Shown here: positions 3,001-54,971 of the stretch, in pieces | Layout: each line of letters begins with the position of its first letter | Position numbering within the stretch: position 1 is the first letter of the stretch | Assembly: GCA_903893815.1 (NCBI GenBank) | Contig: CAITNS010000018.1 | Coordinates: 1 to 64,000 of the forward strand | Direction: 5' to 3' | DNA from: an uncultured Bacteroidota bacterium | GTDB taxonomy: Bacteria > Bacteroidota > Bacteroidia > B-17B0 > Aurantibacillaceae | Length of the DNA stretch: 64,000 nucleotides | Translations under genes and position numbers: made by a program | The notes under the pieces: generated by a model | The model's input: the letters and a program-made list of their open reading frames with translations, nothing else | Told to the model about the DNA's origin: nothing | Database searches by the model: none

Positions 3001-3260
3001 TAGGAACACGGATTTAACTGATTAGGCAGATTTATGCGGATTAAGAATTCAAAAATCTGTGTTGCTATTGTATTTAATAGGAACGCAGATGACGCGGATT
3101 AGGCAGATTTATACGGATTAAAAATAAAAATCCGTGAATATCCGCTTTATCTGTTTTATCTGTGTTGCTATTGTAATAGCCATATTTTAATAAGAACACT
3201 GAACGTATCAAAATAAAAAATCCGTGAACATCCGCCAAATCAGTTAAATCCGTGTTCCTA
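3001..3260. repeat. cluster of CGGAT-type palindromic repeats (gene-less relatives of the GxxExxY element arms)
   Basis: The 348-nt gap between guaB and the rhomboid gene is almost filled by this block. The outer arms 3001-3042 and 3219-3260 are inverted copies matching at 36 of 42 positions, with the first 23 identical. A second hairpin lies inside at 3076-3172 (arms GGAACGCAGAT... and ...CTGTGTTGCTATT), with a half unit at about 3050-3070. Within an arm the trinucleotide GAT recurs every 9-10 bp. The same arms flank the GxxExxY gene at 23545-24160. No ORF lies inside. Confidence 0.85.
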
Positions 3261-21058: not shown

Positions 21059-23542
21059 ATGATTATGAAAAAACAACTCTTACTTCTTGCTCTTCCTCTA
21101 TTAGGATATATAAAACATTATGCTCAAAATTCAGCTGACATTATTCAGGGTTTAAAAAAATTAAATACCGTTGGAAGTGTGCTTTACGTAGCTGCACATC
21201 CTGATGATGAAAACACACGTTTACTAGGATATTTAGCAAATGAAAAGAAATTTAGAACTGGATATTTATCATTAACACGAGGCGATGGTGGACAAAATTT
21301 AATTGGAAAAGAACAAGGCGAACTACTAGGATTAATTAGAACACAAGAATTATTAGCAGCCAGAAGAATAGATGGTGCAGAGCAATATTTCACAAGAGCC
21401 AACGACTTTGGATATTCGAAAACACCCGAAGAAACCTTTACTTTTTGGAATAAAGACAGTATTTTGGCAGATGTAGTTTTATCGATTAGAAGATTTAAAC
21501 CAGATGTGATTATTTGTCGTTTTCCCACAACTGGCGAAGGTGGACATGGACATCACACAACATCAGCTATGTTAGCTGTTGAAGCTTTTGATGCAGCTGC
21601 AGATCCAAAACGTTTTCCTGAACAATTAAAATCTGTTCAAGTATGGCAAGCCAAACGCATTTTTTGGAACACCTTTAATTTTGGTACAACCAACACCACT
21701 GCTCCTAATCAATTAAAAATAGATGTGGGTGTATTTAATCCTTTATTAGGAAAAAGCTATGGCGAAATTGCTGCGGAGAGTCGCTCTTGTCATAAAAGTC
21801 AAGGCTTTGGTTCTGCTAAACAACGTGGTTCCAATATCGAATATTTTAAATTACTAAAAGGAGATAGTGTTGCAACGGATTTATTTGAAAGCATCAATAC
21901 TACTTGGGCAAAATTTAAAGGACAAGATAAAATTCAAAAATTAATAGATGATTGTATTAAAACATATAATCCTCAAGCACCTGAAAATAGCCTTCCAGAC
22001 TTAGTTGCTATTTACAAACAAATTCAAGCATTAGATGAATCAAATGAAAATTTACGCTATTGGAAAAAGCAAAAGCTAAAAGAGACAGAGTCTTTATTGC
22101 TAGCTTGTTCGGGTTTATGGTTAGAGGCTTCAACTTCTGATTATATTGGCATCACAGGCCAAGATGTTGCTATCACCACACAAATCATAAATCGTAATAA
22201 AAGCGATGTAAAATTAAATAGTGTTTCTTATTTAAATAGTGATACAACAACGGTGTTGACTTTAAAATCAAATGAATTGTATACTTTTAAACGTAAAGAA
22301 AAACTATCTAATTCACTATCTTTTTCAAATCCATATTGGCTAAATCAAAAACACGATATTGGTTTGTATACCGTTACTAATCCTAATTTAATTGGTAGAC
22401 CAGAAAATGAATCCAATACTAAAGTGGGTTTTAATATTTCTATTTTGGATTTAAATTTAAAAATTGAACGCCCTTTAGTTTATAAATTTACGGATCCTGT
22501 AAAAGGAGAAATTTATCGTCCCTTTGAAATACTAGCACCTGCAACGGTTAATATTCCTGAAAAGGTATTTGTATTTACAGATGCCACTCCTAAAACTATT
22601 TCTATTACCATTAAAGCAAATGCTGCTAATACAAATGGTACTTTACAATTAAAAGGCAGTGCTGGATGGAATATCACAATTAAAAATCCTGACTTCAAAT
22701 TAGCAAACAAAGGTGATGAAGCCATTATTGAAGCAACGATTGTTGCAGATAAAAATGCAAAGGACGGACAATTACAAGCATCTGTTTTAATAAATAGCGT
22801 TTCATACAATAAGAGCATTAAACGAATTGAGTACGATCATATTCCTTATCAATTTATTTTAAGCGATGCTGAAGCAGGTTTAGTAAATATTGATTTGAAG
22901 AAAACGGGAACTAACATCGGTTATATTCCTGGTGCTGGAGATGACGTGCCAGCTGCATTAAAACAAATTGGTTATAATGTAACAATTTTAACTGACGAGT
23001 TATTGAGTAATGGAAATCTATCTCAATTCAATGCTATCGTGTCTGGCGTTCGTGCTTATAACACCAATGATAGATTACAAGTGCACTATACCAAACTAAT
23101 GGAATACGTGAAAAATGGTGGTAATTTAATTGTTCAATACAATACAAATAACCGCATTGGTCCAGTAAAGGCTAATATTGGCCCTTACCCTTTCACTATT
23201 TCAAGAGACAGAGTAACAGATGAAAAAGCAAACATTGTGTTTAGTAACGAGAAGCATTCGGCGTTAAACTTTCCAAATCAAATTACTCAAAAAGATTTTG
23301 ATGGCTGGATTCAAGAACGAGGCATTTATTTTGCCACTGAAATTGATAAGCAATACGAAACTATTTTTAGTATGAAAGACCCTAATGAAAAAGCAAGCGA
23401 TGGTAGTTTAATTATTGGCAAATATGGCAAAGGCAATTTTGTGTACACAGGTTTAGTTTTTTTTAGAGAGCTACCAGCTGGTATTCCTGGCGCTTACCGT
23501 TTATTTGTAAATTTATTGAGTTTACCAGAAAATAAGCAGTAG
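21059..23542 (+). CDS. secreted PIG-L family deacetylase with C-terminal ThuA-like domain
   Basis: This is an 827-aa exported protein with a signal peptide at residues 1-22. The PIG-L domain has the zinc motif AAHPDDE (His47, Asp50) and a second histidine cluster GHGHH at about 162-166. The family de-N-acetylates GlcNAc-containing substrates. A beta-sandwich-rich middle (about 350-600) and a C-terminal glutamine-amidotransferase/ThuA-like fold (IPGAGDDVPAALKQIG... NGGNLIVQYN) follow. The next chromosomal genes are a small membrane peptide and an SSS symporter, which suggests uptake of the deacetylated product. A GxxExxY element lies between them. Confidence 0.88.
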   Translation: MIMKKQLLLLALPLLGYIKHYAQNSADIIQGLKKLNTVGSVLYVAAHPDDENTRLLGYLANEKKFRTGYLSLTRGDGGQNLIGKEQGELLGLIRTQELLAARRIDGAEQYFTRANDFGYSKTPEETFTFWNKDSILADVVLSIRRFKPDVIICRFPTTGEGGHGHHTTSAMLAVEAFDAAADPKRFPEQLKSVQVWQAKRIFWNTFNFGTTNTTAPNQLKIDVGVFNPLLGKSYGEIAAESRSCHKSQGFGSAKQRGSNIEYFKLLKGDSVATDLFESINTTWAKFKGQDKIQKLIDDCIKTYNPQAPENSLPDLVAIYKQIQALDESNENLRYWKKQKLKETESLLLACSGLWLEASTSDYIGITGQDVAITTQIINRNKSDVKLNSVSYLNSDTTTVLTLKSNELYTFKRKEKLSNSLSFSNPYWLNQKHDIGLYTVTNPNLIGRPENESNTKVGFNISILDLNLKIERPLVYKFTDPVKGEIYRPFEILAPATVNIPEKVFVFTDATPKTISITIKANAANTNGTLQLKGSAGWNITIKNPDFKLANKGDEAIIEATIVADKNAKDGQLQASVLINSVSYNKSIKRIEYDHIPYQFILSDAEAGLVNIDLKKTGTNIGYIPGAGDDVPAALKQIGYNVTILTDELLSNGNLSQFNAIVSGVRAYNTNDRLQVHYTKLMEYVKNGGNLIVQYNTNNRIGPVKANIGPYPFTISRDRVTDEKANIVFSNEKHSALNFPNQITQKDFDGWIQERGIYFATEIDKQYETIFSMKDPNEKASDGSLIIGKYGKGNFVYTGLVFFRELPAGIPGAYRLFVNLLSLPENKQ

Positions 23543-23544
23543 TT

Positions 23545-24160
23545 GGTTTAAATGGAACACGAATTGAGCGGATAAAGCAGATTAATGCGGATGAAAATTA
23601 TAGAGTAAATTAAGAAAGTAATACTAGAACGTATATAAAAATTTAAAAAACATTAAATGAATACTGATAAAAATAATTCAGAATCATTATTACATAAAGA
23701 TATAACTGAGGAAATAATCAGTGCATATTATTTTGTATACAATGAACTCGGTTTTGGATTTTTAGAAAAAGTATACGAAAACGCCATGCTTATTGAATTA
23801 AAAAGTAGAGGTTTTAAAGTTGAATCTCAAAAAATCGTCAAAGTTCACTTTAAAGATTCAATAATTGGTGAATATTTTGCAGACATCATAGTAGAAGATA
23901 AAATCATTTTAGAACTAAAATCTTGTGAAGCGTTAGTACCAGAACACGAAGTTCAATTATTTAATTACCTTAAAGCAACAAGCATAGAAGTTGGCTTATT
24001 ATTTAATTTTGGTAAACGAGCGGCATTCAAAAGAAAAGTGTTTACAAACGACAATAAAAAATTCACATTTACCAACTAAACACAAATAAATCCATTAACT
24101 ACAACAAAGAAAATCTGTGAGAATCAGCCAAATCAGTTTTATCCGCGTCTCTATTTAACC
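23545..24160. mobile_element. GxxExxY-gene element with inverted CGGAT-type arms
   Basis: The left arm (23545-23598) and right arm (24111-24160) are imperfect inverted copies. Both begin GGTT(T)AAAT and continue through the words GCGGATAAA, GCAGATT or GCTGATT, and GCGGAT or ACAGAT. They enclose one gene, the GxxExxY protein at 23657-24079. The same arm type occurs without a gene at 3001-3260. No transposase and no obvious target-site duplication are seen. Calling it mobile is inference from dispersal and from its position between functionally linked genes. Confidence 0.6.
23657..24079 (+). CDS. GxxExxY protein (PD-(D/E)XK-like nuclease superfamily)
   Basis: This is a 140-aa protein with the family-naming motif at residues 34-40 (GFLEKVY). 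A candidate PD-(D/E)XK active site follows: Asp76 in YFADIIVEDK, then Glu86-x-Lys88 in ILELKS, and later Gln100 in EVQLFNYLKA. The family is known as small, widespread in Bacteroidota, and of unproven function; nuclease activity is predicted from fold only. It lies alone between inverted palindromic arms, which makes it the likely resident gene of a repeat element rather than part of the flanking operon. Confidence 0.88.
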   Translation: MNTDKNNSESLLHKDITEEIISAYYFVYNELGFGFLEKVYENAMLIELKSRGFKVESQKIVKVHFKDSIIGEYFADIIVEDKIILELKSCEALVPEHEVQLFNYLKATSIEVGLLFNFGKRAAFKRKVFTNDNKKFTFTN

Positions 24161-24161
24161 A

Positions 24162-24287
24162 ATGAATAAACTAGAAGAAGAAAAATCACCAATCCTAAAA
24201 TCATGGCGTAATGTTTATGCTTTGGTTATTGGCGTATTAGTTGCTGTTATTGTTTCGCTTTACTTTTTCACTCAACAATATAAATGA
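24162..24287 (+). CDS. 41-aa single-pass membrane peptide coupled to the symporter gene
   Basis: This short ORF encodes a charged N terminus (MNKLEEEKSPILKSW) and one hydrophobic helix (about residues 19-36) ending in a short polar tail. Its TGA stop overlaps the ATG of the symporter gene (ATGA at 24284-24287), a classic translational coupling arrangement. The peptide may be an accessory subunit of the transporter; that is inference from position and size. It begins 2 nt after the right arm of the GxxExxY element. Confidence 0.7.
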   Translation: MNKLEEEKSPILKSWRNVYALVIGVLVAVIVSLYFFTQQYK

Positions 24288-25978
24288 GTTTTATTGATTG
24301 GATCATATTAAGTATCACACTTTTATCCATCGTTGGTTACGGTGTTTGGAAGAGCCGCCATACAAAAAGCATTGAAGGCTATTTATTAGCAGATAGACAA
24401 TTACCTTGGTATCATGTTGGTTTATCCGTTATGGCTACTCAAGCTAGCGCTATTACCTTTTTATCTGCTCCTGGACAAGGCTATACTGACGGTTTACGAT
24501 TTGTACAATTTTACTTTGGTTTACCATTAGCTATGGTTGTACTCTGTATTACCTTTATTCCTATTTTTCATAAACTCAATGTTTTTACGGCTTACGAATT
24601 TTTAGAAAAACGTTTTGATAATAAAACACGAACACTCACTGCCTTTTTATTTTTATTGCAACGCGGTCTCTCCACTGGGATTACCATTTATGCACCAGCT
24701 ATTATTTTATCTACCATTTTAAATATTGACGTTAACTATACCATTGTTTTAAATGGACTCATTGTAATCGCCTACACCGTTTATGGTGGAGCAAAAGCGG
24801 TATCCTACACACAACTGTTTCAAATGAGTGTGATTTTTGCCGGTTTATTTTTAGCCGCTTACATGGTCGTTCATTTATTACCTGATAACGTGAGTTTTAG
24901 TGACGCTTTACACATTGCTGGTAAAATGGATAAACTCAACGCTATTGATACCAAATTTGATGTGAATAATAAATACAATATTTGGTCGGGAATTATTGGC
25001 GGTTTCTTTTTACAATTGTCTTATTTTGGAACCGACCAATCTCAAGTTGGACGCTATTTAACAGGTAAATCTATTGCACAAAGTCGTTTAGGTTTGGTGA
25101 TGAATGGCTTGGTAAAAATACCAATGCAGTTTTTTATTTTATTAATTGGCGTACTCGTTTTTACATTTTACCAGTTTCATCAATCGCCCATCTTTTTTAA
25201 TAAAGTAGAAGTAAGTAGCATCCAAAACAGTGAATACAAAGAAGATTTTAAAGCATTAGAAAAAGCCTATGTTTTAGCTCATACCGAAAAACAAGTTGAA
25301 GTCAATAAGCTTATAGAAGCCATTCACAGTGAGGATGAGCAAGCAATTAATACAGCAAGAACAAACGTGCAAGCAGCTGATAAAAAAAGTAATGCGATTA
25401 GAAAAGAAGCAACTGCTTTAATGCAAAAAAATAATCCGAAAGCGGATGTGAATGATACAAACTATATTTTTTTAAATTTCATTACCACACAATTGCCAAT
25501 TGGTGTGGTTGGGTTATTGATTGCTATCATCTTTTTAGCATCTATGGGCTCGATGGCTAGCGGATTAAATTCATTGGCATCAACTACCATTATTGATTTT
25601 TATAAACGCTTATTTAAAAAAGAAGAAACAGACAAATCTTACTTATCGGCATCGCGTTGGACAACTGTTATCTGGGGTTTGTTTTGTATTATGGTGGCTT
25701 TTTATGCCAGCCGAGTTGGTAATTTAATTGAAGCCGTTAATATTTTAGGTTCTTTATTTTACGGAACCATTCTAGGCATTTTCTTAGTCGCCTTTTATAT
25801 GAAACGTATTAGCGGAACATCCGTTTTTTATGCGGCCTTGTTTGCCGAAGGATTTATTGTATACGCCTGGATAACGGATTTAACTGCCTTCTTGTGGTTA
25901 AACGTGATTGGATGCTTATTAGTAATGGCATTGGCATATATTATTCAGTTGATTTTAAATAAAAGAAAGGTTGTGTAA
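24284..25978 (+). CDS. sodium:solute symporter family protein (SSS)
   Basis: This is a 564-aa inner-membrane transporter with about 13 predicted helices and the LeuT-like SSS signature regions (EGYLLADRQLPWYHVGLSVM, ATQASAITFLSAPGQGY, SYFGTDQSQVGRYL, SMGSMASGLNSLASTTIIDFY). It takes up a small organic solute with Na+. An unusual charged helical insertion of about 90 residues (303-392) lies between two helices. The neighbouring PIG-L deacetylase and murQ suggest an amino sugar or glycan-derived substrate, which is inference. The start is coupled to the small peptide gene by a 4-nt overlap. Confidence 0.9.
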   Translation: MSFIDWIILSITLLSIVGYGVWKSRHTKSIEGYLLADRQLPWYHVGLSVMATQASAITFLSAPGQGYTDGLRFVQFYFGLPLAMVVLCITFIPIFHKLNVFTAYEFLEKRFDNKTRTLTAFLFLLQRGLSTGITIYAPAIILSTILNIDVNYTIVLNGLIVIAYTVYGGAKAVSYTQLFQMSVIFAGLFLAAYMVVHLLPDNVSFSDALHIAGKMDKLNAIDTKFDVNNKYNIWSGIIGGFFLQLSYFGTDQSQVGRYLTGKSIAQSRLGLVMNGLVKIPMQFFILLIGVLVFTFYQFHQSPIFFNKVEVSSIQNSEYKEDFKALEKAYVLAHTEKQVEVNKLIEAIHSEDEQAINTARTNVQAADKKSNAIRKEATALMQKNNPKADVNDTNYIFLNFITTQLPIGVVGLLIAIIFLASMGSMASGLNSLASTTIIDFYKRLFKKEETDKSYLSASRWTTVIWGLFCIMVAFYASRVGNLIEAVNILGSLFYGTILGIFLVAFYMKRISGTSVFYAALFAEGFIVYAWITDLTAFLWLNVIGCLLVMALAYIIQLILNKRKVV

Positions 25979-29969: not shown

Positions 29970-29991
29970 TTTTTATTTCTTATTACGAATT

Positions 29992-30062
29992 TTATACGAA
30001 TGTACGAATCTGTGTTTGCTGAGCTAAGCTGTTAGATTCGCATATTCGTAATGATTCGTAAT
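29992..30062. repeat. ACGAAT-iterated palindrome
   Basis: The left arm has ACGAAT three times (spacings 11 and 8 bp). The right arm has the complementary ATTCG words three times. The arms pair over about 29 nt with few mismatches around a GCTGAGCTAAGC loop region. It lies between arfB and rlmB on the minus strand. Confidence 0.75.
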
Positions 30063-38987: not shown

Positions 38988-39035
38988 AAGGTTTAGAAAG
39001 TTTAAAATATTTAACTTTTAAACTTTTTAAACCTT
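38988..39035. repeat. AAGTTTA-iterated palindrome
   Basis: AAGGTTTAGAAAGTTTAAAA (38988-39007) pairs with TTTTAAACTTTTTAAACCTT (39016-39035) at 19 of 20 positions around an 8-nt loop. The sequence to the left repeats the same 9-bp words (TTTAGAAAG, CTTAAAGG). It lies between the ABC transporter and arginase genes. Confidence 0.75.
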
Positions 39036-54716: not shown

Positions 54717-54755
54717 AGATACGGTTTGTGTGTATGAAGGTACATATTTTTAGGA

Positions 54756-54942
54756 TTAACCGCAAAGGCGCAATAAATTTAGTCGTAAAATTTTCATCTT
54801 ATTTTTCTTTTTCCTTGACGAAAAAGAAACAAAAAGTCAAGGCGAAAGACCAACCGCACTATTACCAAAGTATGATAGACTAATAAATAAAGTATTTTAC
54901 CTTTCTGTCCTTTGCGAAAAACTTTGCCTCTTTGCGGTTAAA
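54756..54942. repeat. GCAAAG-iterated palindrome with nested hairpin
   Basis: The outer arms are TTAACCGCAAAGGCGCAA (54756-54773) and its inverted relative (54910-54942), which carries CTTTGC three times. Inside, CCTTGAC (54813-54819) and GTCAAGG (54836-54842) form a second stem with a purine-rich 16-nt loop. The block fills the 255-nt gap between the RelA/SpoT and methyltransferase genes; no ORF lies in it. Confidence 0.75.
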
Positions 54943-54971
54943 CATTAAACTAAATCTTAAATTTACATCCG

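Follow-up and report, generated by a model that had tools for sequence, protein, structure and literature searches.

Among described systems, the locus reported here most resembles the REP/REPIN-RAYT systems (PMC2817692, PMC3116915, PMC3733652), for which the published case builds on flanking inverted repeats, co-evolution and a repeat abundance tied to gene presence (PMC2817692, PMC3116915). A small ORF within inverted arms is also known from the intervening sequences (IVS) of 23S rRNA, which carry an S23/four-helix-bundle ORF (PMC4990558). As in REPIN-RAYT systems, a single gene is bracketed by a pair of inverted repeats, and inverted doublets of about 100 bp that lack the gene are scattered through extragenic space; the repeats co-evolve with the protein, their number correlates with the matching gene, and the gene mostly stays in place. 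The locus is nevertheless unlike these systems in its enzyme, which has a PD-(D/E)XK nuclease fold in place of the Y1/HUH tyrosine transposase, and in its arms, which lack the GTAG/CGTC tag at the hairpin end and are arrays of 3–4 words with a period of 9–10 nt.

In the window, by which we mean the whole stretch of 64,000 nucleotides that was analyzed, a GxxExxY gene (23657..24079, + strand; 140 aa, PD-(D/E)XK fold with active-site residues D76, E86 and K88) lies between a left arm at 23554..23592 (+ strand) and a right arm at 24113..24151 (- strand), the latter being the inverted word array (inverted repeat I1). Each arm is composed of four words of 6–8 nt of the RCNGAT type, spaced 9–10 nt apart, which in the left arm read ACACGAAT, GCGGAT, GCAGAT and GCGGAT. 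The left arm, recognized in the sequence, fits the pattern GRRACRCRGAT-N3-RCDGAT-N3-RCDGAT-N4-RCRGAT with one mismatch and the right arm with none, and with up to 3 mismatches allowed this pattern has 64 matches in the genome against 0 for the reversed-pattern control; the arm consensus in the window dialect is GGAACRCRGAT N3 RCDGAT N3 RCDGAT N4 RCRGAT. The two arms are imperfect inverted copies with identical words and differing spacers of 3–4 nt, which agrees with the original prediction of inverted imperfect arms around the gene except for slightly shifted limits. What that prediction missed is that the arms consist of arrayed words, in a dialect specific to each clade, and are not plain terminal repeats. 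A PIG-L deacetylase domain protein (21059..23542, + strand; PF02585) is the left neighbor, and to the right follow a small peptide of 41 aa without Pfam match (24162..24287, + strand; read from the sequence) and a sodium/solute symporter (24284..25978, + strand; TIGR00813, PF00474). According to the ORF list and Pfam, GxxExxY is the sole ORF of the unit, with neither a transposase nor a second gene, and profile searches detected no DDE, HUH, serine or tyrosine transposase in it. Gene and arms form one unit, which is intergenic between PIG-L and symporter, with no rRNA within the 64-kb window.

The predicted identity of the gene is confirmed by 134.8 bits against TIGR04256 (cut-off 35) and 140.6 bits against PF13366 (PDDEXK_3, cut-off 22), making the window protein a full-length member of families that are defined by sequence only. 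D76, E86 and K88 are invariant in two alignments, as are G32, G34, E37 and Y40. The AlphaFold2 model (pLDDT 85) runs helix-helix-three strands-helix-two strands, and its best structural matches in the PDB are the Cas4 protein SSO0001 (4ic1, E 2.9e-5, with a modest VIA Z of 9.2), archaeal Hjc (2wcw/2wiw) and lambda exonuclease. The D-ExK and QxxxY motifs are likewise shared with Cas4/RecB-like and Hjc PD-(D/E)XK nucleases, the QxxxY motif resembling that of RecB/Cas4-type exonucleases. Unlike Cas4, the window protein is shorter, contains one Cys in 140 aa and so offers no room for a four-cysteine Fe-S cluster, carries the GxxExxY motif and has no cas genes nearby, where PIG-L and the symporter are found. 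A sequence search of the PDB with the window protein returned no match, as did PADLOC, and PHROGs returned weak matches only, of unknown function. An omega (dN/dS) of 0.16 between the window gene and its G019 ortholog indicates purifying selection. Based on the model, the enzyme is a predicted Cas4/Hjc-like PD-(D/E)XK nuclease unrelated to RAYT. Our literature search covered open-access papers and found there neither a described function or repeat link for GxxExxY nor a match to the arm-word strings.

The original prediction stood or fell with arms at most GxxExxY genes, and inverted arms were found at 58 % of 113 such genes in this genome and 60 relatives, against 4 % of 402 other ORFs and 4 % inverted matches for mismatched flank pairs as control, an arm being called when the inverted match of upstream and downstream flank exceeded the shuffled 99th percentile. 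A wider survey across phyla, comprising the GxxExxY core clade only, yielded arms at 57 % of 77 genes versus 2.3 % of control ORFs, and in more than 10 phyla. The arm-bearing records are labeled Bacteroidota, Ignavibacteria, Planctomycetota, Chloroflexota (Anaerolineales, Roseiflexus), Alphaproteobacteria, Acidobacteria, Omnitrophota, Hydrogenedentota and Nitrospinota, plus one Methanosarcinales bin, and as many of them are metagenome bins no single odd host label should be leaned on. The strict test detects no arm pair at about 42 % of the GxxExxY genes, for which decay, start-site error or other roles are candidate causes. Recurrence of 5-mers in the GxxExxY flanks peaks at lags 8–10. Plain 6-mer counts of one word over all flanks gave a weak signal, as words differ from clade to clade, and arm-to-arm alignment was used instead.

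This diversity of words is already visible within the genome under study, which encodes five divergent GxxExxY genes whose readable words are all different, namely ACGGAT in the window, ACATAG (C43), TACGAAT (C53) and CGCTAAG (C35). On the protein tree the words sort by clade, and the TACGAAT protein clade has kept TACGAAT or its variant TACTAAT in 10 genomes from several families. Between host families, arms are alike in 0–1 % of the pairs below 40 % protein identity and in 45 % of those at 60–85 %, while within the same genome none of 79 pairs below 40 % has similar arms. In a Mantel test of arm against protein similarity, 0 of 500 permutations reached the observed value, a co-variation that is also expected if both merely travel together. 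As arm similarity tracks protein identity across families, these sequence comparisons demonstrate a word dialect that follows the protein clade, and not the host, across host families and phyla.

The majority of arms enclose no gene. The gene-less copy predicted at about 3001–3260 of the window is real and occupies 3003..3258, with arms at 3003-3041 (+), 3080-3118 (+), 3130-3168 (-) and 3220-3258 (-), the inner pair of which folds with a z of -9.0. A gene-less doublet of the TACGAAT dialect, whose matching gene is found elsewhere in the genome (C53), lies at 29983..30062, its left arm being called by pattern and its right arm from the sequence, and a probable one of a CGCAAAG dialect, with AACCGCAAAGGCGCAA inverted (inverted repeat I2), at 54745..54952. 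In the whole genome, gene-less inverted doublets of about 105 bp occur in tens, in agreement with the predicted gene-bearing element plus non-coding derivatives. For the window dialect, 36 inverted pairs were counted, the gene-less ones of which mostly measure 95–117 bp in total, built from two arms and a loop of about 27 bp. Each of the 20 doublet sites considered in this genome is located between ORFs, and at 16 of these sites the neighboring genes are in tandem. We also observed one doublet that is tandemly amplified four times and another that is amplified twice (L233:1754-2268 and L235:1561-1804), the G019 ortholog being single copy.

Within the arms, word positions mostly hold 1.3–1.9 bits of information and spacers mostly 0.2–0.8 bits. 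When spacers and degenerate word positions of 26 de-duplicated pairs were compared with random re-pairing, the two arms of a pair were less alike than random (0.358 vs 0.436, z -2.96; second comparison 0.380 vs 0.467, z -2.90). With words conserved, spacers free and pairing below random, it is the words, as recognition sites, that are under constraint, and selection seems to disfavor perfect hairpins. Perfect palindromes are removed by hairpin nucleases such as SbcCD, and removal of this type would be the obvious reason for the avoided pairing. The doublets can fold, with z values of -1.8 to -9.0; a conserved RNA stem was considered as a candidate, which the covariation test did not support.

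Across the genus, the PIG-L/symporter junction is empty in one species; two species have arms without a gene there, two have an intact gene and one has a broken gene. The empty junction of G006, which has neither arms nor gene, supports the predicted insertion between linked genes, as only a short spacer separates the PIG-L stop from the small-peptide start (BLAST gap 32 bp). Gene-less arms are present in G017 and in G011 (G011:C32:3685-3957, L046), the latter with another palindrome (GATCGAGCGGAGTCGAGAAC...CTCGACTACGCTCG) nested between them. G000 and G019 have the arms together with an intact gene, G012 has them with a disrupted one, and G005 carries an unrelated palindrome. The presence/absence variation on which the original prediction depended was found at the window site as well as at gene-less sites, since some relatives lack a doublet at the doublet sites and others carry one of another dialect; at L232, for example, the ACGGAT doublet of this genome corresponds to an ACATAG doublet in G003 and G011. 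We found no recent insertion that shows a clean target-site duplication; empty sites are available only in relatives at 75–90 % flank identity, and the closest genomes (G000/G019) share the sites compared. Two close genomes were compared over five loci (including L237/L286, L242/L285, L239/L284 and window 23554-23592 vs G019), and the arms proved to have changed faster than the sequence around them, with differences at 24 of 390 arm sites compared to 40 of 1444 flank and 2 of 175 loop sites; the window left arm differs from G019 at 11 of its 39 sites. This could be due to mutagenic turnover or to conversion between copies.

The number of arms rises with the presence of a matching gene, although the genomes are related and the points behind the following p values are thus not fully independent. 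Four genomes with a gene of the matching clade (intact, intact, cut by a contig end and broken, respectively) contain 64, 41, 22 and 8 ACGGAT arms, whereas 16 others contain 0–9 (p=0.0017); for ACATAG the association with the matching gene has p=0.0022, and over 60 genomes the TACGAAT arms average 6.9 with the matching gene and 1.2 without it (p=0.0006). An exception is G008, which carries 15 TACGAAT arms without a matching gene; gene loss or incomplete assemblies could explain arms in such genomes. Concerning movement, 108 GxxExxY pairs at 60–90 % identity from different genomes have like arms and no common flanking DNA, whereas at 90 % protein identity or more 16 of 16 pairs share their flanks. 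In addition, a gene of the window clade sits at another locus in G011 with the same words. From this we conclude that the gene-bearing unit takes its arms along when it moves, that it does so rarely, and that the doublets are the numerous form.

Since each gene clade has its own word and genomes with the matching gene contain more gene-less copies, it is probable that the repeats are spread or maintained by the enzyme. That the protein acts on the arms, as originally proposed, gains support from the arm-protein co-variation across families and from the arm number rising with the matching gene, the action itself being something we still infer. We consider it probable that the locus represents a REPIN-RAYT-like system, reached independently and built on the PD-(D/E)XK protein GxxExxY. 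In such a system the protein would bind the word arrays at one word for every near-turn of the helix, bring two inverted arms together and cut at or near their GGAAC ends, whereby doublets would be excised or copied in trans, while the gene-bearing copy would mostly be inherited at a fixed site with rare moves. By descent the element does not belong to REPIN-RAYT, since it lacks a tyrosine transposase, the GTAG/CGTC tag and compensatory pairing, the pairing of free positions being avoided here; it also differs in occurring in Bacteroidota and more than nine other phyla.

Co-variation of arm and protein would also follow from co-travel by itself if the arms were the termini of a miniature transposon that a different enzyme mobilizes, with GxxExxY as cargo that profits or is trapped. 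Rare movement of gene-bearing copies and the lack of a readable junction signature would suit this explanation, which we regard as unlikely given that the dialect changes with the GxxExxY clade across more than 10 phyla, that doublet number follows the matching gene and that the unit holds no transposase or other gene. The foldability of the doublets and their location between tandem genes in 16 of 20 cases would in turn fit an element acting at the RNA level, comparable to 23S rRNA IVS or intergenic terminators, in which the arms form a processed or transcript-stabilizing stem and the protein processes RNA ends; analogous arms in the four-helix-bundle family known from rRNA IVS (PMC4990558) point the same way. 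A selected stem should however show compensatory changes, whereas the free positions pair below random, the words and not the duplex are conserved, and Rfam gave no match, rendering this reading quite improbable. Apart from its small ORF within inverted arms, the window unit also departs from the IVS in lying outside rRNA, in its unrelated protein, in its word period of 9–10 nt as opposed to 7 nt and in giving no hint of a conserved RNA stem.

The fold and the QxxxY motif would be compatible with a RecB/Cas4-like exonuclease that benefits its host in repair, defense or chromosome organization through Chi-like or self-marking word sites, so that doublets would be kept by host selection instead of spreading. 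Conservation of the words at many sites and purifying selection on the gene would agree with such a role, which we judge very improbable because sites differ between species, the dialect follows the gene and not the host, and PADLOC gave no match.

Arms of a similar kind surround an unrelated gene family that the original prediction did not foresee. Inverted iterated-word arms are present at 51 % of 53 genes encoding four-helix-bundle (S23/IVS-like) TIGR02436 proteins (L062-L091, L161 and L172-L191), with a strict 7 nt period (lags 7/14/21) compared to 8–10 for GxxExxY, and their arm-protein co-variation is present but weaker, with 12 of 500 permutations reaching the observed value. One gene of this family (L066, G000:C40:28542-28862) is armless and has neighbors about 50 and 4 bp away in an apparent operon. 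In the window itself, a near-perfect 20-bp hairpin at 38988-39035 (AAGGTTTAGAAAGTTTAAAA/TTTTAAACTTTTTAAACCTT) is similar to the 7-nt-word type.

Returning to the REPIN-RAYT-like reading, we see as an evenly balanced proposition that it extends to a hitherto undescribed class of DNA, selfish or domesticated, that spans phyla, in which each small PD-(D/E)XK nuclease would read an iterated word specific to its clade and would spread or maintain the corresponding gene-less doublets, recognition drift would generate several mutually non-interfering dialects per genome, and the four-helix-bundle genes with their 7-nt words would represent a second, unrelated protein on the same arm plan. GxxExxY genes are widespread and often multi-copy, with no described role found in the open-access literature. 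If the reading is true, a curated protein family of unknown function would gain a role as the cognate enzyme of word-array repeats, a large class of intergenic repeats (ACCACAGAGACACAGAG and relatives) in Bacteroidota, Planctomycetota, Chloroflexota and others would be explained, and the REPIN-RAYT way of life would have arisen again with an unrelated enzyme. The dialects would moreover offer a natural set of matched proteins and words in which to study DNA recognition by a small nuclease, with the prediction that each protein should bind its own word and not that of another dialect.
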